Assembly: GCA_023663185.1 (NCBI GenBank)
Contig: JAMPHY010000019.1
Location: 1-57,228 of the forward strand
Direction of reading: 5' to 3'
Length of the DNA stretch: 57,228 nucleotides
DNA from: Clostridiales bacterium
Lineage (GTDB): Bacteria; Bacillota; Clostridia; Lachnospirales; Lachnospiraceae
Under the pieces are notes generated by a model, which saw only the letters and a program-made list of their open reading frames with translations, did no database searches and was not told the DNA's origin. Both the position numbers and the translations under genes were made by a program. This document shows, in pieces, positions 42,051-55,201 of the stretch. Position 1 is the stretch's first letter. The number at the start of each line of letters is the position of its first letter.

Positions 42051-44186
42051 CTACCACCATATAATATATATCAGCGTCAACGCCAGCCCGACGCTGAACA
42101 TGAAAAACCCGAAAGATATGCTTCTTTGTATGATAACGAAACTCTCCCTAAAGTCTTCAACGCCCGAAGCGGCGGCGTGTACGAAATCAATATGAGTCGG
42201 ATTTTTCCTGCCCCACAGCTTATTGCGCAGCGACTGCACAGCGTTCATTATCCTTCCTATAAAGACCGTAAACACATTTCCTTCGCTGAGTTCATGCGGA
42301 ATCGGTGAATCTTTATAGAGTGTTTTGCGCAGCGCCACAACAACTATATCCACCAGACTGTCGCATATTCTGCTCACGATACTGCATACTGACGGAATTA
42401 AGCTAAGCAACAGCGGTCTGTAAACAAGTTCTTCTAAGTCTAACCACTTTGGCCATGCACTGATATATTTTCCCTTGCGCAGAAGTAATATGCGTATAAC
42501 CAGCACATAGACAAACGCGCCTATTATAATGGAAATCAACGCGCCTTTCAGATTGGCAAGGCTGAAATACTCCACCACAGCAGTCTGAACTGCAACTGCT
42601 TGTACTGTAGCTGTCTGCGCTGCATCCGCTCCGACCAAAACTGTATTGCCGGCAGAATGCAGCGGATTCATAAACCGCTCTCCCATCGCCGCCGCTTTGT
42701 CCATAACGGTATGCGGGAACAATCCCCACGCAAACAGCACAAGCGCGCTTCCTACAAGCGCGAAACCGCTCTCCTTATTCATATACCGCCTCATTTCGTC
42801 ATACTGCTTTTGTCTTTTTGCATCTTCATTCTTTTCTATAAAAATCGCCACAAACAGCTTAGTCATATATGCGATTGTCAGCCCGCCGCTTATTAAGAAA
42901 ATGACTTCTACCAGCTTCATCATGCTTCCGCCGCCGTATTCCAGAATACTCTCGTGTAAAAGCGTCTTGCTGATATAGCCGCTAAACATAGGAATGCCGC
43001 CTATCGCCAAAGCGCCGATAAGGAAAATCACCTTAAGCAGCGGTTTTTTCCTGCCAAATCCCCTTATCTCATTCAAATTCAGCGCATGTGTATTCATAAA
43101 CACCACGCCCGCCGCCATGAACAGCACCAGTTTAATCAGGGAGTGGTTCACCATATGGAGCAGAGTTCCGTGTACTGCCATAATGCCTTCCGTTCCGAGA
43201 AGCCCCTGCATGCCAACTCCCACCAAAATAAAGCCTATCTGCGACATGGACGAACAGGCAAGCGTATGCTTTAAATCCATGGAAAAAACCGCTAAAAGCG
43301 CGCCGCCGAACATAGTCAGGACTCCAATTGTCAGGATCAGTTGTCCCCATGCCACATTGTTTAGAAAAAGGTCGCAACTTGTAATTAATATCCCAAATAC
43401 GCCGACTTTCGTAAGAATACCTGATAACAGCGCCGACGCAGGCGCCGGTGCTACCGGGTGCGCTTTCGGCAACCAGATGTGGAGTGGAAAAGCTCCCGCT
43501 TTTGCCCCAAAACCGACTAACAGGCACACGCCCGCCGCATAAATCAGCCTATGGTCGCCTTCATATAATAGTGCCGCAAAGAACAGCTCATCTATCTTCA
43601 CAGTACCGAGTGTATGATACAGAAGGAAAATTCCCATCAGCATTACAAGCCCGCCGATAACGGCTACCGCAAGATAAGTCGCCGCCGCTTTTAACGCAGC
43701 CGCACTCTCTTCCTGCGCCACCCATACATACGAAGTAAACGACATAATCTCAAAGAAAATAAACATTGTATACAAATCCGCCGCCAGGAATACGCCCATA
43801 GTCGCCCCCAGCGTAGCAAGCATAAATAGATAGAAACGGTTTTTATTCTCATGATGCTGCATATATTCCCTTGAAATAATGGTCGTCATCATCCACATGA
43901 AAGCGGCTATCAGAATATAAAGCAGGCGGAAACTCTCAAGCGTAAAGTTAAGCCCCATGCCGCAGACTCCCGGAATACTGCAGTCATAAACCGAAAAACC
44001 GTCCGCATACAGCTTGTTCCAGTTAGCAATAAACAAAACTAACACCATGATAAACTCGCTGACGGCAATAAAATCCGCAAACAAATCCCTTAGTGTTTCT
44101 TTTTTCGCTCCAATAATATACGCCACGAGCGCCCCCAAAAATGGATAGAATACCAGTACGGGTAATATTATATTTTCATTCATCAT
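42051..44186 (-). CDS. Antiporter-like subunit, NuoL/MrpA/HyfB type
   Basis: Large membrane subunit of about 711 aa, homologous to the proton-pumping antiporter-like subunits of complex I and Mrp. It has the conserved Glu in MFIFFEIMS (TM5), the Lys in KAGAFPLHIWLPKAHP (TM7) and the PASALLSG loop. A 180-residue C-terminal extension ends in a hydrophobic helix. I chose the ATG at 44186, 6 nt after AGGAG. It is last of ten genes. With MnhB- and DUF4040-type partners it would supply the MrpA role. Confidence 0.88.
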   Translation of the reverse strand: MMNENIILPVLVFYPFLGALVAYIIGAKKETLRDLFADFIAVSEFIMVLVLFIANWNKLYADGFSVYDCSIPGVCGMGLNFTLESFRLLYILIAAFMWMMTTIISREYMQHHENKNRFYLFMLATLGATMGVFLAADLYTMFIFFEIMSFTSYVWVAQEESAAALKAAATYLAVAVIGGLVMLMGIFLLYHTLGTVKIDELFFAALLYEGDHRLIYAAGVCLLVGFGAKAGAFPLHIWLPKAHPVAPAPASALLSGILTKVGVFGILITSCDLFLNNVAWGQLILTIGVLTMFGGALLAVFSMDLKHTLACSSMSQIGFILVGVGMQGLLGTEGIMAVHGTLLHMVNHSLIKLVLFMAAGVVFMNTHALNLNEIRGFGRKKPLLKVIFLIGALAIGGIPMFSGYISKTLLHESILEYGGGSMMKLVEVIFLISGGLTIAYMTKLFVAIFIEKNEDAKRQKQYDEMRRYMNKESGFALVGSALVLFAWGLFPHTVMDKAAAMGERFMNPLHSAGNTVLVGADAAQTATVQAVAVQTAVVEYFSLANLKGALISIIIGAFVYVLVIRILLLRKGKYISAWPKWLDLEELVYRPLLLSLIPSVCSIVSRICDSLVDIVVVALRKTLYKDSPIPHELSEGNVFTVFIGRIMNAVQSLRNKLWGRKNPTHIDFVHAAASGVEDFRESFVIIQRSISFGFFMFSVGLALTLIYIIWW

Positions 44187-44199
44187 ATACAACTCCTTT

Positions 44200-45687
44200 T
44201 TAAATCCCTACTCCCACCGCTGCTGCAACCACACTCTCAAGCGCCTCTGTAAGCGTCTGCGGGTGCAATCCAATAAAGAACATCACTACCACAAAAACCA
44301 CCAGCGGCAGCACCATCAACCAATTAGGATCTTTGACGTCTGCTACCGTTCCATAATCGAAATCCTTACCCGGAAAAAACGCCCTAACAACAATCGTCAG
44401 CATATAAATTGCCGTCAAAAGTGCAGAAATAAGGATTGCTGCCAAGCCCACATATCCAAGTGGATTATGGCTTGCCACAGCCCCTTTTGCCAGATACCAC
44501 TTGCTGACAAAGCCGCACAGCCCCGGCACACCCATAAGCGCCATAGCCGATACAGTGAAAATCGCAAACACCTTCGGCATCTTCCTGCCAAGCCCGTCAA
44601 GCTGGTGTATATAAGTCCGCTCAGTTTTATATATAACCGCTCCGGCACAGAAGAACGAACATATCTTCATAACCGCGTGTACGAGCATGTGCGCTAGCGC
44701 GCCCATGAGTCCGAGCGGCGTCATAAGCGCTACGCCAAACAAAATATACGACAAGTTGCTGACCGTAGACCACGCCAGCCTGCGTTTTAAGTGCGTTTCT
44801 TTAAGCGCGCGGCTGCAGCCGTACACAATCGTGAAAATCGTAATAACCAACAGAAGATTCTGCGCCCATGTTCCGCGTAAAAATTCTGTGCCAAAACTAA
44901 AATAAGTAATCCTAAGCGTTGCAAACGCTCCCGCCTTAACCACAGCTACGGCATGAAGAAGCGCAGTAACAGGAGTCGGCGCTACGCCCGCTTTAGGCAG
45001 CCATGCCGAAAACGGACACATGGCGGCTTTCACGCTGAAACCGCAGAAGCAGAGTACATAAATCAACAGAAGCAGATTTGCTTTGTCTCCTAATTGGGAC
45101 ATATCCAGCACGCCGCCCGGCGTAAAATCTGGAGTAGTTCCATATATCAATATAAAAATCATGCCAATAAATGCAAACGCCGCGCCACCTAAAGAGTAAT
45201 ACAGATAAGTACGGCTCGCCAATACCGCTTCTCTTGAGAGCGTATGAAGCACAAGCGGCACCGTCACCATAGTCAGCATTTCATAGAAAAAGTACATGGT
45301 TACAATATCTTCCGCCATCGCTATGCCAAGCGTTACCCCATAAGTAACCGTATAAAACATAAAAAATATTTTTTCATGCTTCTCCTGTTTCATATATTCA
45401 AATGAGTATAACGTCGCAAACGGCCACAAAAACGCAAGAATAGTGGCAAATACGCTGCCAACCGCGTCAAGCTTCAAACTTATGCTAAGCTGTCCGGTAA
45501 ACTTAAACAGTACAAACGCCTCTGCCGGACGATTGAAAATCAACATAAATGCAAACACCGATGTAACAATAACCACTAATTCTATATAAACTGCCATAAT
45601 ATTTCTGTTTTTAAATGGAAGCACGGGAATGAGCGCACCGCATACTATTGGCGCAAGCACCGCAATCACCATAAAATACGACTCCAT
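44200..45687 (-). CDS. Antiporter-like subunit, MrpD/NuoM type (third copy)
   Basis: A 495-aa integral membrane protein with about 14 helices. The TM5 Glu (FFYEMLTM) and the TM7 Lys (KAAMCPFSAWLPKAG) required for proton or ion transfer are present, as is a further Lys in VVKAGAF. It starts 7 nt after the previous gene, with AAAGGAG upstream. It is one of three tandem MrpD/NuoN-like genes. Confidence 0.9.
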   Translation of the reverse strand: MESYFMVIAVLAPIVCGALIPVLPFKNRNIMAVYIELVVIVTSVFAFMLIFNRPAEAFVLFKFTGQLSISLKLDAVGSVFATILAFLWPFATLYSFEYMKQEKHEKIFFMFYTVTYGVTLGIAMAEDIVTMYFFYEMLTMVTVPLVLHTLSREAVLASRTYLYYSLGGAAFAFIGMIFILIYGTTPDFTPGGVLDMSQLGDKANLLLLIYVLCFCGFSVKAAMCPFSAWLPKAGVAPTPVTALLHAVAVVKAGAFATLRITYFSFGTEFLRGTWAQNLLLVITIFTIVYGCSRALKETHLKRRLAWSTVSNLSYILFGVALMTPLGLMGALAHMLVHAVMKICSFFCAGAVIYKTERTYIHQLDGLGRKMPKVFAIFTVSAMALMGVPGLCGFVSKWYLAKGAVASHNPLGYVGLAAILISALLTAIYMLTIVVRAFFPGKDFDYGTVADVKDPNWLMVLPLVVFVVVMFFIGLHPQTLTEALESVVAAAVGVGI

Positions 45688-45694
45688 TTTATCT

Positions 45695-47119
45695 TCACAC
45701 TCCTTTCACGAGAAGCTTCGCAATTTCGTCCACATATTTAATCAGTGGATTCGGCAGAATGCCTAAAATCACCGAAATAACCGTCAATATCAAAAGCGCC
45801 GCCGTCATCATATCTATCTTTTCTTTTTTTACCTCCGTCGTATCGCTTTTCCCCGGAAGGAAGCCCTTAATAGTAATTGGAAGCAGATACCCCGCTGTCA
45901 GCAGCGCGCTGATTAGCAGCACGATAGGACCTAAAAATCTGAATATTCCCGTACCCGACTGCAGCGCCCCCTGCGCGAGATACCATTTACTGATAAAGCT
46001 ATTAAAAGGTGGAATACCCACAAGTGCAAGTGCGGCAAAAGTATAGCACCACAACGTCGCCTTCATCTGTTTTCCAATTCCTGTATACGAGTCCACCTTC
46101 GTTTTACCTGTGCGGAATATAAAGATTCCAGCAGTCAGAAACAGTGCGCATTTAACAAAGGCATGAAAGACAAAATGCAGCAGCGCGCCGCTTACGGCAG
46201 CCGGCGTAAGCAGGGCAAGACCAAACAATATATACGACACCTGACTTACCGTGGAGTAAGCAAGCCGCTTCTTAAACACTTTTTCCCGATATGCAAGCAT
46301 AGAGCCCATGAATACGGTTAGCAGCGTGAGCGCAAGCCAAGCGGTCTGAACCCATGTACCTTTTATAAAATCTGTTCCCACGATATAGTAGATACTGCGG
46401 ATAATGGCAAGCACGCCGCCTTTTACTATGATGGCGGACAATAACGCCGAAGCAGGCGCAGGAGCCGCAGGGTGCGCAGCGGTCAGCCATGAATGCAGCG
46501 GAAACATACCCGCCTTTGCCCCAAATCCTATAAGCATCATAAAGACTGCCACACGGAGTATAGCACTATTTTCCGAGGCAAATGTCATATTCAATGTGCC
46601 GCCTGCGGTAAATGTAAGCGTATCACAATACTGATAGAGAAAATAAATTCCAAACAATGCGAAATAAGCCCCGCACATAGAATAGAACAAATATTTCAAC
46701 GCCGCCATAATCGCTTCTTTTGAACCGTTATGCAGTACAAGCGGCATGGAAGACAACGTCATAAGCTCATAAAATAAGTAAAACGTAATCAGATTGCCCG
46801 CCGACTCCAAACCAATAAGTATAACATACACCAATATATAAAATATGAAAAATCTCTTTTCCGCCCCTTCATGCTGCATATAGACAAACGCATAAAACCC
46901 CGTTACAAGCCAGATAATACTCGTCACCGTAATAAAAAGCCTTCCCAGCGCGTCTATATGAAAGTATACCGGAATTTTGTCCATCAGATAAAACAGCGTC
47001 AGACTCCCGTCCACGCACCACGCCAAAACAAGCGCCAGCGCCGCCGCAAGCGTCATAATTATGCCGACAACTATATGCATGTTTTTTACGGATTCTTTCT
47101 TATCTAAAATCTGGTTCAT
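45695..47119 (-). CDS. Antiporter-like subunit, MrpD/NuoM type (second copy)
   Basis: A 474-aa membrane protein. The TM5 Glu appears in LFYELMTL and the TM7 Lys in KAGMFPLHSWLTAAHPAAP, followed by the PASALLSA loop. AAGGAG lies 12 nt before the ATG at 47119; a downstream ATG at 47077 is also possible. The 91-bp gap before it is the largest between the antiporter genes and has no clear promoter. Confidence 0.9.
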   Translation of the reverse strand: MNQILDKKESVKNMHIVVGIIMTLAAALALVLAWCVDGSLTLFYLMDKIPVYFHIDALGRLFITVTSIIWLVTGFYAFVYMQHEGAEKRFFIFYILVYVILIGLESAGNLITFYLFYELMTLSSMPLVLHNGSKEAIMAALKYLFYSMCGAYFALFGIYFLYQYCDTLTFTAGGTLNMTFASENSAILRVAVFMMLIGFGAKAGMFPLHSWLTAAHPAAPAPASALLSAIIVKGGVLAIIRSIYYIVGTDFIKGTWVQTAWLALTLLTVFMGSMLAYREKVFKKRLAYSTVSQVSYILFGLALLTPAAVSGALLHFVFHAFVKCALFLTAGIFIFRTGKTKVDSYTGIGKQMKATLWCYTFAALALVGIPPFNSFISKWYLAQGALQSGTGIFRFLGPIVLLISALLTAGYLLPITIKGFLPGKSDTTEVKKEKIDMMTAALLILTVISVILGILPNPLIKYVDEIAKLLVKGV

Positions 47120-47210
47120 ATTAAAATCATGCTCCTTCTTACAATCATAAGAACATTAGACAATTCCCAAACTCATTATTCCACAACGTCTCTTATCAAA
47201 TAACATTCCC

Positions 47211-48719
47211 TCATGCGAACATCTGCAGCCCCTGCTCAATCAACTCAATCACAGGTTCCGAAGACAACCCTAAGAACAAATTCAAAATAATAAAGCAGAC
47301 CAGCGCGCAGCTTTTTGCCGGCTGCTCCCAGATGGACACATTTTCAAACCCTTTATCAATAACTACTTCCCTCTTCTCAGGCGTATAAATACGAATTACC
47401 GTCTTCATGAAATAAACCGCATTCAGTATCACGCTGATTGCCAATGCTATCAGTGTGATAAGAATCTTATGTTTATTTTCCACAGCCGCCTGCGCAAAAA
47501 GCAGTTTGGAGATAAAGCCCGAAAACATCGGGAATCCCACCATCGACAATGAGCCTACGGTAAAGGCGACGCCCGCCAGTTTATTACGGTATCCCGCCCC
47601 TGTCAAATCAAAGAAATCTTTGCTCTTTCCGGACGCGTCGGTAATTCCCGATGCCGCCGTAAAAAGCAGGGATTTGGTCGCAGCGTGTGAAACTATATGA
47701 TAGATGCTCGCAATCATGCCCGACGTAGTCCCCAAACCAAAGCCCATGTAGATATATCCTATCTGCGCCACCGAAGAATAGGCAATCATCCTCCGTATAT
47801 CCGTTTCCTTAATCGCGTTAATCGAACCCATTATCATGCCCGCCACGCCGAAAACGAACAGCACGTTGATTACCTTGCTCTCCCTTATTATCTCGAAACC
47901 GATAACACGGTAAAATATCTTTACAAGCAAAAATATGTAGCCTTTAGACACGAGCGAAGACAATATCGACGCAGAAGAAAGCGTCGAATATCCGTATGCG
48001 TCCGGCAGCCATGTATGAAAAGGATACAATGCGCTCTTAATGGCTATACCTACCGATATAAGGCAGATTGAAACCAAAAGCGGCATATGGTACTCTCCCG
48101 ATGCATGTATATACGCAACCTGTTCTTTTATATTGCTCATAAGCAGATGTCCGGTCAGACTGTATAAAAAGCAGATGCCAAGCAGCAGAAGCCCCGAGCC
48201 TAAAAGGCTCATAATCATATACCGCGCCGCCGCTTCAAATGTCCTCCCCGTCTGCCTTATCATAATCAGCCCGCATGCCGAGATGGTATTAATTTCCACA
48301 AACACATACGCCGTAAATAAATCGTTGGTATATATGAGCGCAAGCAGGGAGCATAACAGCAGATTTACCATTATATAATACAGATTTTGCTTGCCCTCTT
48401 CTATTTCCAGCTCACGCTCCAGCTCGCCGCCTACGACGCACAATAGCATAATGACACAGAAAATCAGAGCCATTACCGCTTCCAAAATCCCGACTCTGAT
48501 TTCATTTCCCCACGGTGCAGGGAAATGCCCCATTGTGTATATATACTCCTGCCCCGAACCAATCACAAAGACAAGCACCGCGCCGGACATTACGCTTACC
48601 GCCGTAATCACGGCTATATTTAAGCGTTTCGCCCACTTTCCGTTAAGCACGGACGATAAAGGACCGGCAAATAATGATATCAGAATGGATATAAACGGGA
48701 AATTCTGCACAAAAGCCAT
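47211..48719 (-). CDS. Antiporter-like subunit, MrpD/NuoN type (first copy)
   Basis: A 502-aa membrane protein with the TM5 Glu in YVFVEINT and the TM7 Lys in KSALYPFHTWLPDAYG. Its start overlaps the upstream stop as TAATG, so translation is coupled to the MnhC-like gene. Of the three D-type subunits it is the one at the usual MrpD place, directly after the C subunit. Confidence 0.91.
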   Translation of the reverse strand: MAFVQNFPFISILISLFAGPLSSVLNGKWAKRLNIAVITAVSVMSGAVLVFVIGSGQEYIYTMGHFPAPWGNEIRVGILEAVMALIFCVIMLLCVVGGELERELEIEEGKQNLYYIMVNLLLCSLLALIYTNDLFTAYVFVEINTISACGLIMIRQTGRTFEAAARYMIMSLLGSGLLLLGICFLYSLTGHLLMSNIKEQVAYIHASGEYHMPLLVSICLISVGIAIKSALYPFHTWLPDAYGYSTLSSASILSSLVSKGYIFLLVKIFYRVIGFEIIRESKVINVLFVFGVAGMIMGSINAIKETDIRRMIAYSSVAQIGYIYMGFGLGTTSGMIASIYHIVSHAATKSLLFTAASGITDASGKSKDFFDLTGAGYRNKLAGVAFTVGSLSMVGFPMFSGFISKLLFAQAAVENKHKILITLIALAISVILNAVYFMKTVIRIYTPEKREVVIDKGFENVSIWEQPAKSCALVCFIILNLFLGLSSEPVIELIEQGLQMFA

Positions 48720-49096
48720 TACGCTTCCCCCCTTTTAACCATCAGCGATATCTCGTCCAAGTCCAGCGTATGATATCTGCCATAAAGACGTATCGTAAGA
48801 GAGAGCATAAGCGCGGTTACGGAAACGGAAACAACGATTCCCGTAAGCACCAGACCGCTTGGAATGGGATTGATATATGCCTCCACACTCTGAACCCCGT
48901 CCACTACCATAGGCGCTTTATGCCCCGATATATATCCCTTAAGGGCAAGAAACAGATACACCGAAGTATCCATAATGTTCATGCCGACTATCTTTTTAAT
49001 CAGATTCTTCTGCATAAGCAGATTAGAAAATCCGATGCCGAACAAAATCATTGTCACGGCTTCTTCATAATTAGTAAGCAAATTTGCAAAATTCAC
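48719..49096 (-). CDS. mnhC: MnhC/NuoK-like subunit
   Basis: A 125-aa, three-helix membrane protein of the NuoK/MrpC family. The middle helix has the VGMNIMDTSVYLFL pattern typical of MnhC. It starts one nt after the MbhE-MnhB gene's stop and overlaps the next start. In Mrp complexes this subunit helps form the lateral ion path. Confidence 0.92.
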   Translation of the reverse strand: MNFANLLTNYEEAVTMILFGIGFSNLLMQKNLIKKIVGMNIMDTSVYLFLALKGYISGHKAPMVVDGVQSVEAYINPIPSGLVLTGIVVSVSVTALMLSLTIRLYGRYHTLDLDEISLMVKRGEA

Positions 49097-49097
49097 T

Positions 49098-50066
49098 TTA
49101 GTACCCTCCTTTACGGAACATTACATAGAACGTGTACATAGTTCCGGCAACGACGATTCCTACGCAGATATTCAATATCAGAATAAGCCCGCTGCTTAAG
49201 ATTGCCCCCGGCGTCCCAAGCGGAATCACGCTTTCTATATGGTTCGCCCCCGTATAGAACGAGTAGCTTTTAGCAAGGCAGTAACAGCCCAGAGCGCATA
49301 CGCTGAGTACCTTATATGTCTTTTGTGAGAAAAACCGCTCCGTCTTCTTAAATCCAAAAGCATTAAGGTATAAAATCAAGCCTGCCCCTATAATTGCGCC
49401 GCCCGAAAAGCCGCCGCCCGGTCCAAGATGCCCGCATAAAATAACATAGATGCCGAATATTATTATCAACGGCACAAGCACATTTGCCGCACTTTGCAGA
49501 ATAACGTCGTTTTTTGGTTCGTAGATACGGTCATTCTCTTCGATATCATTCCCGTACTCGTCCTTTTTCTTATCCCTGCGCAGCAATATAAGCACCGTAC
49601 AGGTCGCAATGAAAAGCACATGCGATTCTCCCAGCGTATCAAACGCGCGGTAGTCCAATATCATGCCGGTTACTATGTTTACCGCGCCGGTCTCTTGAAG
49701 TCCGTTTTCTATATAACGCGCCGACACCTCGTTATTGACAGGATTTTCCATATGTCCGTAGGAGGGCAGATTAGAGACTGCGATAAGCAGCATCACTACT
49801 AAAAAGACACAGAATAAAGCGCTGAATATTCTATAGCCTTTCTCAAAACCCTTTACTTCCAAGTTATTTGCCACATCATAGACTTTAGCAAAACGTCGTG
49901 CCTTATCCGCATTTCTGCTTATTACGTCTAAAACGTCTTCTTTATATTCTTCCTGCGGCTTCATTTCGACTTTTCCCACAAAGGAGTCGTTCTCGCCGCT
50001 TAACCATCTTTTTAATCTAAAAGAAAACGTCTTCTTATATTCACTGTCAGGTATTCTCCTGCTCAT
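49098..50066 (-). CDS. MbhE-MnhB fusion subunit
   Basis: A 322-aa subunit made of three parts. An N-terminal cytosolic stretch of about 75 residues has no recognised domain. An MbhE-like part follows (about 80-160) with a helix and the RAFDTLGESHVLF segment. The MnhB domain (about 185-320) has QSAANVLVPLIIIFG and GPGGGFSGGAI. In many operons MbhE and MnhB are separate or fused to MrpA. The start overlaps the previous gene by 20 nt. Confidence 0.88.
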   Translation of the reverse strand: MSRRIPDSEYKKTFSFRLKRWLSGENDSFVGKVEMKPQEEYKEDVLDVISRNADKARRFAKVYDVANNLEVKGFEKGYRIFSALFCVFLVVMLLIAVSNLPSYGHMENPVNNEVSARYIENGLQETGAVNIVTGMILDYRAFDTLGESHVLFIATCTVLILLRRDKKKDEYGNDIEENDRIYEPKNDVILQSAANVLVPLIIIFGIYVILCGHLGPGGGFSGGAIIGAGLILYLNAFGFKKTERFFSQKTYKVLSVCALGCYCLAKSYSFYTGANHIESVIPLGTPGAILSSGLILILNICVGIVVAGTMYTFYVMFRKGGY

Positions 50067-50328
50067 CCGCCGTCTCCTCCTTTTTATCGCTTTTCACTAT
50101 CGCATGGATTTTCTTAAGCGTGACGAAAAACAGCACGCTTGTCACGCCCGCTCCTACTGCCGCCTCGGTAATGGCAAGGTCGGGCGATTCCAAAAGCACC
50201 CATATGATAGACATAACCAGGCTGTATGACATAAAAATCAAAATCGTATTCAGCAGATTTTTGGACAGGCTTGCCGCTATGGCGCATATAATTAAAAATA
50301 CCAGCAAAATATTGACAAATATCTCCAT
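50047..50328 (-). CDS. DUF4040/MbhD-like subunit
   Basis: A 93-aa protein with three helices and the DUF4040 signature LLESPDLAITEAAVGAGV. In Bacillus Mrp this part is the C-terminal piece of MrpA; in Mbh hydrogenases it is MbhD. Here it is a separate gene, 2 nt after mnhG, and it overlaps the next gene. Confidence 0.9.
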   Translation of the reverse strand: MEIFVNILLVFLIICAIAASLSKNLLNTILIFMSYSLVMSIIWVLLESPDLAITEAAVGAGVTSVLFFVTLKKIHAIVKSDKKEETADEQENT

Positions 50329-50330
50329 TT

Positions 50331-50735
50331 TTATAACTGTTCCCCCTTCTTATCCTGCGAATCTGCACCTTGCTCTTTTCTGCCCTTTGATTCCCTTTCC
50401 AGCTCGTCCATCGTTATCACACGGTAGTGTTCCTTCCTTTCTTCGTCAGTCGCTACTTCCAGCCTTGCAATCAGATGCGAAGACGTGGGCGAAGAAAACC
50501 ACAAGAACACAATAATGCAAAACAATTTCAAGGATGTAAAATTAATACCGCTTATTATAATCAAGCCTATAAGCGAGCTGGCAATACCAAGAGTATCGCC
50601 CATCGCCGCGGCGTGCATTCTGTTTAATACATATTTAAAGCGGAAAACGCCTATCATTTCAATTAAAAAGATAGAAAGCCCGCAGAGCAGAAACAGCGCG
50701 CCGAAGATAAAACGAATCCATTCAATCGCTTCCAT
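50331..50735 (-). CDS. mnhG: MnhG-like subunit
   Basis: A protein of about 134 aa with three helices and the MnhG hallmark RMHAAAMGDTLG. A C-terminal hydrophilic tail of about 40 residues rich in Glu, Arg and Lys is an addition. I chose the ATG at 50735, preceded by GGAGGAG; the frame is open back to 50759. The start overlaps mnhF by 14 nt. Confidence 0.92.
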   Translation of the reverse strand: MEAIEWIRFIFGALFLLCGLSIFLIEMIGVFRFKYVLNRMHAAAMGDTLGIASSLIGLIIISGINFTSLKLFCIIVFLWFSSPTSSHLIARLEVATDEERKEHYRVITMDELERESKGRKEQGADSQDKKGEQL

Positions 50736-51048
50736 TTCTCTCCTCCTTCTTCTTCTCACGATACACGCCCATATAGACCTTAGTTAATACGATAACCGCC
50801 AGAAAACTTATCATTGCGTAAATTATGCAGATATCAACCAGATAACCTTCGCCAAGCATAATGGCAAGTATGGCAATGACAACCATAACCATCGTTCCCA
50901 TCATATTAGTTGCCACAATTCTGTCCGCCACCTTAGGTCCCATGATTGCGCGTATCAGACACAGGATAATCATTACAGCCAGAAAAACCAGCGCGGCAAC
51001 AAACAAAGCATGATACGCACTTTCCAATCCCTGTATACCCTTTCCCAT
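50722..51048 (-). CDS. mnhF: MnhF-like subunit
   Basis: A 108-aa, three-helix protein of the MnhF/PhaF family. The characteristic RAIMGPKVADRIVATN segment sits in the loop after the first helix. A short basic tail follows the last helix. It lies second in the operon, with GGAGAA before the ATG. Confidence 0.93.
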   Translation of the reverse strand: MGKGIQGLESAYHALFVAALVFLAVMIILCLIRAIMGPKVADRIVATNMMGTMVMVVIAILAIMLGEGYLVDICIIYAMISFLAVIVLTKVYMGVYREKKKEERNGSD

Positions 51049-51094
51049 GTTTTCTCCTTTCCCTGCTTATAACTGCCAAGCACCTTCACAGTTA

Positions 51095-51553
51095 CTACTT
51101 CTCCATCTTCGCCAGCATATCCGCGAATACCGACTTATTAATACCCTCGGCAAAAGTTTCGTCAAGACAGTGAACCGTATATACATTATTTTCAAGCAGT
51201 ACGGTTATCGTTCCGGGTGTGAGGGTGATTGCATTTGCCAGCGCAGAACGGTACGCCGATTCCGACAAATCAGATTTAAATGAAACGAGAAGCGGTTCAA
51301 CTTCTTCCTCTTCTGATAGAATTAAATGAATAACGGCAAAATTCGCCTTAACTATTTCCACTACCAATACAAAGACATAACGCAGCATCAAAAATATATT
51401 TTTAAAAAGCCTTTTTTCCTTAGCAATACTGTAATCCATAAATCTGCATGTAAAGGCAAACATGGCGGCGGCGATTACCACTCCGAACACGGCGATTTCC
51501 AATGTAAAACTGCCGTTAAAAACCACCCATAATATAAAGTACAGTAAAAACAT
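51095..51553 (-). CDS. mnhE: MnhE-like subunit
   Basis: A protein of about 152 aa of the MnhE/MrpE family: two N-terminal helices (FILWVVFNGSFTLEIAVFG) followed by a soluble part with ANAITLTPGTITV, the family signature. I chose the ATG at 51553; AAGGGA lies about 12 nt upstream, and the frame is open to 51631. It is the first gene of the ten-gene antiporter operon. Confidence 0.9.
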   Translation of the reverse strand: MFLLYFILWVVFNGSFTLEIAVFGVVIAAAMFAFTCRFMDYSIAKEKRLFKNIFLMLRYVFVLVVEIVKANFAVIHLILSEEEEVEPLLVSFKSDLSESAYRSALANAITLTPGTITVLLENNVYTVHCLDETFAEGINKSVFADMLAKMEK

Positions 51554-51657
51554 TTCTAAGCCAGTCCCTTCCCTGATATTACAAACCTTTATTAACCAAA
51601 AATATATTACTCTGTTTTTTAAATTTGTCAAGAAAGAATTTGCTTATAAAATCGCTT

Positions 51658-54495
51658 TTAAAATTCCTTTTTCCCCAGTCTGACGGCTTCTATATGCTCA
51701 GCCATTTCCACGGATAATTCATCAAACAAGTATTGCTTTTGCGACGTTTTTCTATTTATAAAAAGTTCCCTGAGCTCCTCACTGGTTGACATGATTTCTT
51801 CCTTTAGTTCTCTTGCCGAGAGCCGTCTTGCTCCCTGCCCCATTATTATAAGCTGTTCGAGTCCGTCGGAAGTCGCTACCGTCACGTTATGCTTTTTCCC
51901 TATCTCATGCGTGACCTTTTCGATATATTGGTCCGCCGTCTCCGCTTCTTTGGTATACACCACATGAATGTTATGATAGTTAAAAATACTGCCCTGCCCG
52001 CCTCTGACCTTGTATGCATCGAATACCAAAATCAACGTCATTTTGCGGTAGCCCTGATAGTTGCTTAAAATATCCATAAGCTCGCCCCTCGCGCTGTCCA
52101 GATTGACTTTAGCAAGCTCGCTTAATTCTTCCCATGCAAAAATTATGTTGTATCCGTCTACAAGCAGATAGTCTTTTACGCTTTCTTTGGGCTTTACTTC
52201 CTTATCAGAGTATTTATCAGTTTTTTCTTCTGCGCGGATTATTTTTGCGCTCGAATCGTTCTTTCTGTATCCGCGCCCCGCATCTAAACCTTTTCCGTAT
52301 GTGCGGTTAAATATGGCTTCCAACTCTTTTTCGTCCGCTAAAGACATGCGGTATCCATTACCCACGTTTCCCGTATCGCTTGTATTTCCACTCCCTGCAT
52401 TTGCATTCGTATTTTCATCTTGTCCAGCCGCTGCGCTGCCTTCCGCTTTAGCAAGCACGCTCTCTATGTGCATATACTTCCCAACGTCCTGCCAGTCCAC
52501 CACAAAGCCTGCCCCGTGTGCACAGAAAACCGAAGACGCAGGATTGTCCGTATCGCGCTCTGCATTATAGCCGATAGCCGCAATTACCTCTTCCGTATTA
52601 TGACACGGCTCGTAACCTTTCAGACTGCATATAAGCCTGCCGCTTCCGCCTGAATACGCCGTCACCTCTGTATGATATCCGCGCATGGTTGCTACCGGCG
52701 CCGTCCCCGTCAAAATGGAAATACCATCGTTTGTCTCCGGCGGATTGAACCGACCGTACATAGCCTGTATATCCGACATGGCGCGCCCTATCATAGCAGT
52801 AGGAAGTTCCAGCCTAAATTCATATATAGGCTCAAGGAGAATATTGTCTGCCTGATGAAGTCCCTGTCTTACTGCACGATACACAGCCTGCCTAAAATCG
52901 CCGCCCTCGGTATGCTTTAAATGTGCCTTCCCCGCTGCTAGCGTTATCTTCATATCCGTAAGCGGAGAACCCGTCAGAACGCCTATATGCTCTTTTTCCC
53001 TAAGATGTGTCAAGATAAGCCGCTGCCAGTTCCTGTCCAGTTCGTCCTCGCTGCATATTGTATCAAAAGAAATCCCATTCCCTGCCTCAGACGGCTCCAT
53101 AATCAAATGCACCTCAGCATAATGTCGCAAAGGTTCAAAATGTCCCATGCCTTCTACCTTATTACTAATTGTTTCCTTATATACGATACTGCCTTCGTCA
53201 AACTCTACCGCCACCCCGAAACGCTCTGCTATAAGGTTTTTCAATATCTCAATTTGAACCTCGCCCATCAACTGAATATTAATCTCACCCGCCTGCTCCT
53301 TCCAAACTACATGAAGCTGCGGCTCCTCTTCTTCAAGCTGACACAATTTTTTATACATTACATATACGTCCTGCTCCGGCGGCAGTTTGACACTGTACGT
53401 CATAACCGGAACAAGAATAGGCGCGGTACTTCCTTGCTCTATTCCCAGACCTTCTCCGGCAAAAGTCATGCTAAGTCCCATAACAGCGCATACGGTTCCC
53501 GCTTTGACTTCTTTTACCATCTCATATTTTACGCCGGAATAAATTCGTATCTGGTCCGCCTTTTCTTCCCAGTGTTTTAACTCGCCGTTCCCGCCATTCT
53601 CAACGCCTTCGCCGCAAAGCGTCTGTTTTACTTTCAGGCAGCCGCCGGTAATCTTCATATAGGTAAGGCGGTTTCCCGCTTCGTCCCTTCCTATCTTATA
53701 TACCCTTGCGCCGAAATCATCAGGATAAGCTGTCCGCTTACTATATGCTCCCAGCCCGTCCAGAAGTTCCTCCACACCTTCTATTTTTAACGCCGAACCA
53801 AAATAACAGGGAAAGATTTTCCTCTCGGCTGTCAAAGCCGCGATGTCCTCTCTCCCCACTTCATGATTTCCATATTCTAAATATCGTTCTAACAGATTTT
53901 CGTCGCAAACCGCGATACTTTCTATAAACTTTTCCATCTGCGCAGACACGACATTCATATCCGCGTCTATTGCGGACACATCAACCATATCTGTATCTGC
54001 TGCTGAAGCATAACTGAAATCCACACACTGAGCGCTCAATTTCTCCTGTATTTCCTTCATCAGACTGTCTTTATCAGTATCCGGCATATCCATCTTGTTG
54101 ACAAAAATAAAAACCGGAATGTCATAGCGCTCCAGCAGTTTCCACAGAGTCATCACATGCGCCTGCACTCCGTCTGCGCCGCTTATAAGCAGCACAGCGT
54201 AATCAAGCACTTGCAGAGTCCTCTCCATTTCCGCTGAAAAGTCTACATGCCCCGGCGTATCTAAAAGCGTCACGTCCATATCTTTCCACTTGATTTCCGC
54301 CTGCTTGGAAAAGATAGTAATCCCCCTTGCTCTTTCCTGCGAATAGGTATCCAGAAAAGTATCTCCGTGGTCCACCCTGCCCGTATTCCGTATAATGCCG
54401 CTTAAATAAAGCATGCTTTCCGCTAAAGTCGTCTTTCCGGCGTCTACATGCGCCAAAATCCCGACTACCAGTTTTTTTCTCTCCATCTGTTCCAT
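51658..54495 (-). CDS. EF-G/TetM-like GTPase fused to a Rae1/YacP-like endoribonuclease
   Basis: A 945-aa fusion. Residues 1-690 or so follow the TetM/EF-G plan: G1 AHVDAGKTTL, G2 RGITI, G3 DTPGH, G4 NKMD, then domains II-V. In domain IV the loop that in TetM reads YSPVSTPADF is KAHLKHTEGGDF here, so the tetracycline-displacing tip is not conserved. A linker rich in Asn, Gly and Asp (about 690-770) leads to a NYN/PIN-like domain (775-945). That domain matches Rae1/YacP: LLVDGYNI, VFDAYKV, ETAD, TSDGLEQ and GQGARRLSAREL. Rae1 cleaves mRNA in the ribosomal A site. The fusion suggests GTPase-driven delivery of a nuclease to ribosomes; that role is inference. Confidence 0.9.
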   Translation of the reverse strand: MEQMERKKLVVGILAHVDAGKTTLAESMLYLSGIIRNTGRVDHGDTFLDTYSQERARGITIFSKQAEIKWKDMDVTLLDTPGHVDFSAEMERTLQVLDYAVLLISGADGVQAHVMTLWKLLERYDIPVFIFVNKMDMPDTDKDSLMKEIQEKLSAQCVDFSYASAADTDMVDVSAIDADMNVVSAQMEKFIESIAVCDENLLERYLEYGNHEVGREDIAALTAERKIFPCYFGSALKIEGVEELLDGLGAYSKRTAYPDDFGARVYKIGRDEAGNRLTYMKITGGCLKVKQTLCGEGVENGGNGELKHWEEKADQIRIYSGVKYEMVKEVKAGTVCAVMGLSMTFAGEGLGIEQGSTAPILVPVMTYSVKLPPEQDVYVMYKKLCQLEEEEPQLHVVWKEQAGEINIQLMGEVQIEILKNLIAERFGVAVEFDEGSIVYKETISNKVEGMGHFEPLRHYAEVHLIMEPSEAGNGISFDTICSEDELDRNWQRLILTHLREKEHIGVLTGSPLTDMKITLAAGKAHLKHTEGGDFRQAVYRAVRQGLHQADNILLEPIYEFRLELPTAMIGRAMSDIQAMYGRFNPPETNDGISILTGTAPVATMRGYHTEVTAYSGGSGRLICSLKGYEPCHNTEEVIAAIGYNAERDTDNPASSVFCAHGAGFVVDWQDVGKYMHIESVLAKAEGSAAAGQDENTNANAGSGNTSDTGNVGNGYRMSLADEKELEAIFNRTYGKGLDAGRGYRKNDSSAKIIRAEEKTDKYSDKEVKPKESVKDYLLVDGYNIIFAWEELSELAKVNLDSARGELMDILSNYQGYRKMTLILVFDAYKVRGGQGSIFNYHNIHVVYTKEAETADQYIEKVTHEIGKKHNVTVATSDGLEQLIIMGQGARRLSARELKEEIMSTSEELRELFINRKTSQKQYLFDELSVEMAEHIEAVRLGKKEF

Positions 54496-54496
54496 T

Positions 54497-55201
54497 CTAC
54501 AAAATTGCCCTTCCGACTACCCCGACAAACAAAACTACTGCAAGGTCGCATATCGCTATAAAATACCCTGTCAGTTCCACGGTAACGCCGCCGAAACGTT
54601 TCTTAGACATATAATAATAATATGTCCATATCCACATGCAAAGCAGCGCCTCAAGCATTCCCATTATAGCTGAAAACACAATACATGTCCCAAAGCATAA
54701 TGTCAATATAAGACATAAAAATATCTTAAATACACGTTTCTCAGAGTTTGAAGCAAAAGTATATATACCGTCTTTTACCTTCGCCTGCGGAAACCAGACT
54801 GCTCCCATGCCGCCCAGAGTCACGGATATGACATATCCGACTCCTAATAGTAGTAATTGCCTGTCCTTCCAAACCATAACCAGACCGCCCGCATACAACA
54901 GATAATATGCTCCAATGGCTATTACGGAATAAATGCCGACGCGGTTCTCTTTAAGCATTTCCAGCCGCTTTTCTACGGAATTTCCGCCTTTAAGCGCTTC
55001 CACAGTTCTCATAAAGCCAGCCAGATTAATTCCACCTGTCACCAGTACCGGAACCGCCGCGCCAATCAGTGCAAAAAAAGCCTGTCCGTAACCGTATTCC
55101 ATGCACAGCATACAAAGAGTATACATCAATATCCCCATTACTACGCCGGCAAGCGGCAAAATCAGCAACGTATATTTTTTATTTTCAATACTTAACTTCA
55201 T
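54497..55201 (-). CDS. CobS-like membrane protein with altered motifs
   Basis: A 234-aa membrane protein with about six helices, resembling cobalamin-5'-phosphate synthase (CobS). The family order is kept: TGG at about residue 55, EMLKENRVGIYSV, and FGGVTVELTG near the end. But where CobS has TGGxHLDGxAD, this protein reads TGGINLAGFMR and lacks the metal-binding Asp residues, and TGD near the C-terminus is TVE. It may have lost or changed activity. No other cobalamin gene is nearby. Its stop is next to the start of the GTPase-Rae1 gene, so they are co-expressed. Confidence 0.6.
   Translation of the reverse strand: MKLSIENKKYTLLILPLAGVVMGILMYTLCMLCMEYGYGQAFFALIGAAVPVLVTGGINLAGFMRTVEALKGGNSVEKRLEMLKENRVGIYSVIAIGAYYLLYAGGLVMVWKDRQLLLLGVGYVISVTLGGMGAVWFPQAKVKDGIYTFASNSEKRVFKIFLCLILTLCFGTCIVFSAIMGMLEALLCMWIWTYYYYMSKKRFGGVTVELTGYFIAICDLAVVLFVGVVGRAIL

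Follow-up and report, generated by a model that had tools for sequence, protein, structure and literature searches.

A Tet-like translational GTPase fused to a Rae1/YacP nuclease takes the place of native rae1 in much of a large clostridial family

A 57,228-nucleotide stretch of a Clostridiales genome of the Lachnospiraceae (contig JAMPHY010000019.1, hereafter the window) carries on its minus strand, at positions 51658..54495, a gene for a protein of 945 amino acids in which a Tet/EF-G-like translational GTPase is followed by a linker and a Rae1/YacP nuclease, in a single frame with an ATG start. This fused translation factor is real, conserved and mostly single-copy. The main addition of our analysis, and a well supported one, is that the fused gene has taken over the place of the native rae1 gene. 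On balance we regard the protein as the organism's Rae1 joined to a dedicated translational GTPase, which would cut mRNA in the A site of stalled ribosomes. The domains, the intact active sites, the single copy, the replacement of native rae1 and the near-confinement of the GTPase to the YacP-bearing genomes of the order were all computed directly.

A preliminary description, made from the DNA letters, had proposed a single 945-residue frame with a five-domain EF-G/TetM-like GTPase and its G motifs. The frame was confirmed, and Pfam, alignment and a predicted model agree on the domains, domain 2 being recognised by the model only. The G domain (residues 10-248; 53752..54468, minus strand, as are all parts of the gene) matches Pfam GTP_EFTU at 2.1e-51 with its G motifs intact. 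It is followed by domain 2 (residues 262-348; 53452..53712), where EF-G_D2 reaches 16.8 bits, below its 27-bit cut-off, and where strands are modelled across residues 262-351. Domain III (residues 363-433; 53197..53409; EFG_III, 3.2e-9), domain IV (residues 436-549; 52849..53190; EFG_IV, 6.3e-16) and domain V (residues 553-633; 52597..52839; EFG_C, 1.4e-16) lead into a C-terminal extension (residues 634-676; 52468..52596) common to most of the unfused orthologues shown, which end near this point. A structure comparison of the model returned translational GTPases only (EF-G, TetM, RF3, EF-2, LepA), with residues beyond 644 barely covered; TetM (PDB code 3j9y) covers model residues 6-670.

The Rae1/YacP NYN nuclease domain (residues 777-939; 51679..52167) matches Pfam NYN_YacP at 5.5e-52, and its PF05991 score of 176.5 bits exceeds the curated cut-off of 24.6. 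The solved YacP chains 5mq9 (1.2e-27) and 5mq8 (2.8e-27) align with residues 775-941. The fold is assigned because of this match and the predicted model, which together uphold a Rae1 fold in the C-terminal part, the point on which the first proposal could have failed. The domain is complete and its acidic residues are conserved, as first described: in the alignment D780, D826, D855, E859, T875 and D877 are identical in 31/31 fused and 35/35 standalone nucleases, and N783, E850 and S876 are kept in 31/31 fused and 34/35 standalone ones. D780, D826, D855 and D877 are, we assume, the catalytic acidic residues of YacP.

The linker (residues 677-774; 52174..52467) is mostly disordered, with pLDDT below 50 at residues 692-720 and 736-770. 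Described at first as a low-complexity stretch, it is not purely that: it contains a conserved helix at residues 720-733 (52297..52338; containing ELEAIFNRTY), identified by conservation and predicted in the model, in which this block has a pLDDT of 51-66. The typical form of the helix is ELEEIFxRTYGPVKR. The strict pattern is found in 85/101 distinct fused proteins, most of the other 16 have a similar sequence, and E724, I728 and T732 are present in at least 90% of 62 fused rows. The unfused GTPases shown terminate before the helix. Homology of the helix (IFNRTYG) with the C-terminus of Tet(M)-type proteins (MFNKIT, LFNKTY) was considered and rejected: the TetM alignment to the model stops before the helix.

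The concern that the frame results from two genes being fused by a sequencing or assembly error is ruled out by relatives, and we give it a negligible probability. In a scan of named genomes, the joined frame is uninterrupted in 80/80 of the best-kept of at least 593 relatives, and all 20 fused loci fetched (20/20) carry it. Those best 80 include Lachnospiraceae, Oscillospiraceae, Caproicibacter, Anaerovorax, Desulfosporosinus and others. A YacP match is present in 130/140 genomes of the window's family and absent from 10/140. Among the 130, an open frame of at least 848 amino acids is found in 121, some of which contain stop codons within the matched stretch by the program's count; five have a standalone frame (G285, G623, G628, G213, G278), three have frames of 516-690 amino acids (G229, G600, G291), and one has a frame of 271 amino acids near a contig start (G582). 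A phylum sample of 149 genomes gave 86 YacP matches, 85 of them above the cut-off, and 11/85 lie in frames of more than 800 amino acids. Among 72,556 plasmid records, 1417 match somewhere and only two have at least 80% of the query aligned at a single site, one of these being from Monoglobus; among 50,697 phage records two match at this coverage. A resistance gene on a mobile element was rejected on these counts. Both phage records (MT835563.1, our L309, and MT835514.1) are labelled 'Bacteriophage sp.'; the one examined is UNVERIFIED and unannotated, is probably bacterial DNA, and was given no weight.

The fused gene is the only YacP match in its own genome. In an order sample of 393 genomes, with up to eight first-look candidates scored per genome, 356 had a YacP match, which was single in 349/356. 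In two of the seven genomes with two matches (G376, G152) the pieces are adjacent on the same contig and were read as one split gene. Two others (G123, G141) have the fused gene together with an intact standalone rae1, the fused frame of G123 having 645 amino acids and starting near a contig end, and in two more (G059, G032) the fused gene is accompanied by a broken remnant of rae1. The seventh genome (G326) has two fused-length genes, on contigs C56 and C10 (L313, L317). The native copies of G123, G141, G059 and G032, intact or broken, sit between rlmB and a sigma-factor gene. At 19 standalone rae1 loci fetched, rlmB lies in the same run in 15/19 and the sigma-factor gene in 14/19, usually with cysS and mrnC; families were assigned by Pfam, and names such as sigH are presumed from position. 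No rae1 was found within 1.4-1.5 kb on each side of rlmB in 21/21 fused genomes, the one match in these flanks (0.03) falling within the sigma-factor gene. That gene follows rlmB within 214 bp in 14 of the 21 and was not found adjoining rlmB in seven. The window's own genome is among the seven: a 474-amino-acid gene follows rlmB, and a sigH-like start (0.008) appears at the end of the stretch. The single YacP match, the empty old site at rlmB and the stepwise genomes together indicate that native rae1 gives way to the fused gene once the latter has reached a genome. In the nuclease tree described below, a long branch (0.9) carries the native rae1 copies of G123 and G141, at a great distance from the fused clade, which might reflect a gene losing its function. 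Three standalone Rae1 genes (L066, L067, L068) lie outside the rlmB-sigH run. Two of them, L066 and L068, are the closest sisters to the fused clade in that tree, and this state is a possible half-way stage before fusion.

The run that holds standalone rae1 mostly includes one gene with an RNase III domain and another for a SpoU methylase, both of which presumably have rRNA roles. Such company would suit a scheme in which the GTPase serves only to tether the protein to the ribosome and precursors of rRNA or tRNA are trimmed by the nuclease, an activity suggested earlier for NYN domains of the YacP type (cited in PMC4342817). We consider this improbable. A tether would not require tip residues in domain IV as strictly conserved as these, and the standalone Rae1 of Bacillus subtilis is described as a ribosomal A-site mRNA endonuclease (PMC12320835, PMC6613710; proposed in PMC10100781).

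The history of the two halves was followed in separate trees. The nuclease tree, midpoint-rooted and built from 66 chosen rows (31 fused, 35 standalone), gathers the fused nucleases in one clade (support 96/88, 97% of 200 bootstrap trees) whose nearest sisters are standalone genes of the same family; with six further rows the support is 91/85, with 90% of bootstrap trees. In these midpoint-rooted trees the fused nucleases nest among clostridial standalone Rae1 proteins, as expected from common descent. The GTPase tree comprises 55 chosen rows and is rooted on 10 EF-G rows; L091, L095, L097 and L107 were omitted as near copies or partial. It unites 27 fused and 10 unfused rows in a single clade (100/100), sister to eight protection-protein rows (94/90), with two protection rows on very long branches. 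From these sequences the fusion apparently arose once and then spread, an origin that is moderately supported. Fused genes from other families fall within the fused clade, which suggests transfer of the fused gene between families; the Desulfosporosinus protein L302 shares 76% identity with L054, which comes from the window's family. Separate histories for the halves of L058, from the window's genus, were considered; its identities (66% to the window protein, 56% to L271) make tree noise the likely explanation. Across eight pairs of relatives, three of which share L302 and several of which have synonymous sites near saturation, the GTPase has a dN/dS of 0.06-0.12 and the nuclease one of 0.05-0.13, consistent with purifying selection on both halves. 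The linker gave 0.09-0.30 in five pairs and was not computable in three.

The unfused members of the GTPase clade allowed the association with Rae1 to be followed beyond the fusion. In a search of 20 genomes with standalone Rae1, 12 have an unfused orthologue at 322-636 bits (one in two frames, one partial), and in the other eight the best matches, at most 213 bits, are of EF-G length. For the order, 393 genomes, taken as the same draw as for YacP, were scanned at a threshold of E ≤1e-90, which lies above every protection protein met in the 20-genome search, with the top three candidates per genome scored. An orthologue was found in 257/393 genomes, and 256/257 have YacP: it is present in 256/356 YacP-bearing versus 1/37 YacP-less genomes (Fisher 2e-17, uncorrected for kinship). 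Among the rows shown, at least 24 GTPase-bearing genomes of the order have a YacP frame of standalone length. No orthologue was found in 40 YacP-less genomes, 20 from the family and 20 from the phylum, where matches reach at most 176 and 248 bits, respectively, and are of EF-G length; the phylum half of this result is weak evidence because YacP-bearing phylum genomes are also without a subfamily member. Dependence within the order runs in one direction: the GTPase accompanies Rae1, and Rae1 manages without the GTPase.

The tip of domain IV distinguishes this subfamily. In its first loop (residues 449-461, GMGHFEPLRHYAE; 53113..53151), H452, E454, P455, H458 and E461 are present in 37/37 subfamily rows and 0/10 EF-G rows. 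The eight protection-protein rows have H452 and E454 in 3/8 each, P455 in 5/8, and H458 and E461 in 0/8; these five residues are invariant in 62 fused rows. The third loop (residues 522-535, GKAHLKHTEGGDFR; 52891..52932) has H528, T529, G531, G532, D533, F534 and R535 in 37/37 subfamily rows. G531 and G532 occur in 0/8 protection-protein and 0/10 EF-G rows, H528 and T529 in 2/8 protection rows, and D533, F534 and R535 are common to most protection proteins. The loop reads AHLKHTEGGDFR in the window protein, YYSPVSTPADFR in the Tet(M) row L307 and YHDVDSSEMAFK in the EF-G row L098. It is not of the Tet(M) loop III type, as the preliminary description had recognised from the tip.

These comparisons bear on the proposal of Atkinson and colleagues in 2015 (PMC4342817) that such proteins protect against tetracycline, or another A-site drug, with an RNase that aids resistance. 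The sister relationship to Tet(M)/TetB(P)-like proteins in the EF-G-rooted tree, the top NCBIfam match to tet_protect (428 bits), and a loop III of Tet(M) length that keeps D533, F534 and R535 all speak in favour. The loop sequence is moreover a weak test of drug protection, because the Tet(M) mutant S508A/P509A/V510A retains activity (PMC4750697). The scores, however, fall far below the cut-offs of the protection-protein families (428.5 against 775 bits for NF012153, 281.6 against 1100 for NF033148), and H458, E461, G531 and G532 separate all subfamily rows from all protection rows. One copy in most family genomes and near-confinement to YacP genomes are also unlike a resistance gene. On distribution and cut-offs drug protection is the less likely function, and we hold it to be distinctly unlikely. 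Drug-bound ribosomes, named at the outset as a possible target, find little support, given a fused-length frame in 121/140 family genomes. An unfused clade member on the Ligilactobacillus salivarius plasmid pA17A (L305:2983-4917) is annotated as a TetM-family tetracycline resistance protein. Its tip is mostly of the subfamily type (HTVGGDFR), and the annotation is probably a misnomer; other separate members of the clade that bear this label may likewise be Rae1-linked translation factors.

EF-G-like GTPases enter the A site, and the fusion of one to Rae1, in place of the native gene, points to a GTPase that assists the nuclease in locating troubled ribosomes. A factor that detects stalled ribosomes and cuts the mRNA there, as first envisaged, fits the evidence best, and we infer the following mechanism. 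The GTPase half would bind 70S ribosomes whose A site is unserved, and domain IV would read the decoding centre. Upon GTP hydrolysis domain IV would withdraw, if the steps run in this order, and the nuclease, on its flexible linker of ~100 residues, could enter the vacated A site and cut the mRNA. The cut mRNA would then pass to decay and the ribosome to rescue, the trigger and the hand-off being conjectural. A hand-off is favoured because both halves cannot occupy the A site together. More tentatively, at somewhat short of an even chance, the entire Tet-like GTPase subfamily, fused or separate, could be a GTP-driven gatekeeper, a new class of translation factor that licenses Rae1 at unserved A sites. 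If so, the fused protein would be a bacterial no-go decay factor with recognition and cutting in a single chain.

The strongest rival places the GTPase after the cut, where it would recycle or translocate the truncated complex as EF-G does with RRF. The EF-G fold over model residues 3-647, the long flexible linker and the same one-way co-occurrence of GTPase and YacP agree with it. The neighbours of the fused gene, by contrast, suggest no partner: none is consistent across 20 fused loci, and the widest cluster (c8) occurs in 6/20 at varying positions. We judge action after the cut to be unlikely.

Several observations weigh against a GTPase that guides Rae1 to stalled ribosomes. The nuclease and domain IV would be competitors for a single A site, which makes the hand-off an assumption, and the full-length model (pTM 0.63) does not fix the mutual placement of the halves. 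A single origin of the fused rows receives only 79/55 in the GTPase tree, with 81% of bootstrap trees. The separate GTPase is not near rae1 in the 12 genomes of the 20-genome search that have both. Of the YacP genomes of the order, 100/356 are without the GTPase at the threshold used, and none of 40 phylum genomes with standalone Rae1 has a subfamily orthologue, the best matches (G427, 328 bits; G465, 325 bits) grouping with protection proteins in the GTPase tree. Rae1 does not need the GTPase. The co-occurrence itself is automatic for fused genes, takes no account of kinship and covers the top three candidates per genome. Finally, G231 has a fused-length YacP frame and is absent from the GTPase list, and G091, by elimination, has the orthologue (5.0e-166) without a YacP match; either its nuclease half was lost or broken, or it has an unfused GTPase without Rae1.

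Neighbours of the separate GTPase are common only to members of a single genus (L326 and L328) or of a pair of close genera (L329, L330 and L332). In the latter three the gene lies downstream of a cluster resembling rplU-rpmA-obgE-yhbY-nadD-yqeK-rsfS, the gene names being presumed. In the window, a CobS-like gene (54497-55201, minus strand; PF02654) lies one base upstream of the fused gene; it scores below all five NCBIfam cobS cut-offs listed and perhaps encodes a CobS-fold protein with another function. Downstream, Mrp/Mnh-type antiporter genes occupy 42051-51631 on the minus strand, with MNHE at 51095-51631 and Proton_antipo_M at 42051-44192. In the window's own genome (G000), the only separate match of EF-G length (L117) has a divergent P-loop, GHGGCGKTS; an ordinary EF-G was not found there at that threshold, the assembly being perhaps incomplete.

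The architecture is already in print. Atkinson and colleagues reported Tet proteins with a YacP-like NYN domain in ten clostridial species and suggested drug resistance, and the window protein, a Tet-type GTPase and a YacP-like NYN domain in one clostridial chain, answers to their description (PMC4342817). This was the sole mention of the fusion found in the part of the Rae1 literature that our search covered. In RefSeq, a member from Monoglobus bears the name 'translation factor GTPase family protein'. What is added here is the replacement of Rae1, the origin of the fusion, a GTPase clade with its own tip, and the co-occurrence. A natural Rae1-GTPase fusion that replaces Rae1 across much of a large clostridial family would name a partner for the choice of ribosomes by Rae1, and how Rae1 selects them becomes testable through the fusion.

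The proteins of Atkinson and colleagues likewise combine these two halves in a single clostridial chain; in contrast to ten species and a drug-resistance idea, the family described here has a wide distribution and appears to stand in for Rae1. EF-G differs from the window protein in its tip loops, with 26% identity in the EF-G match and 299.5 bits against a cut-off of 659.4 for TIGR00484. Compared to Tet(M)/TetB(P)-like proteins, the window protein has a different domain IV tip and an added linker and nuclease. With Rae1/YacP of B. subtilis it shares the nuclease domain and the active-site residues, aligning to the solved chains nearly end to end; the B. subtilis protein, unlike that of the window, is standalone and has no GTPase.

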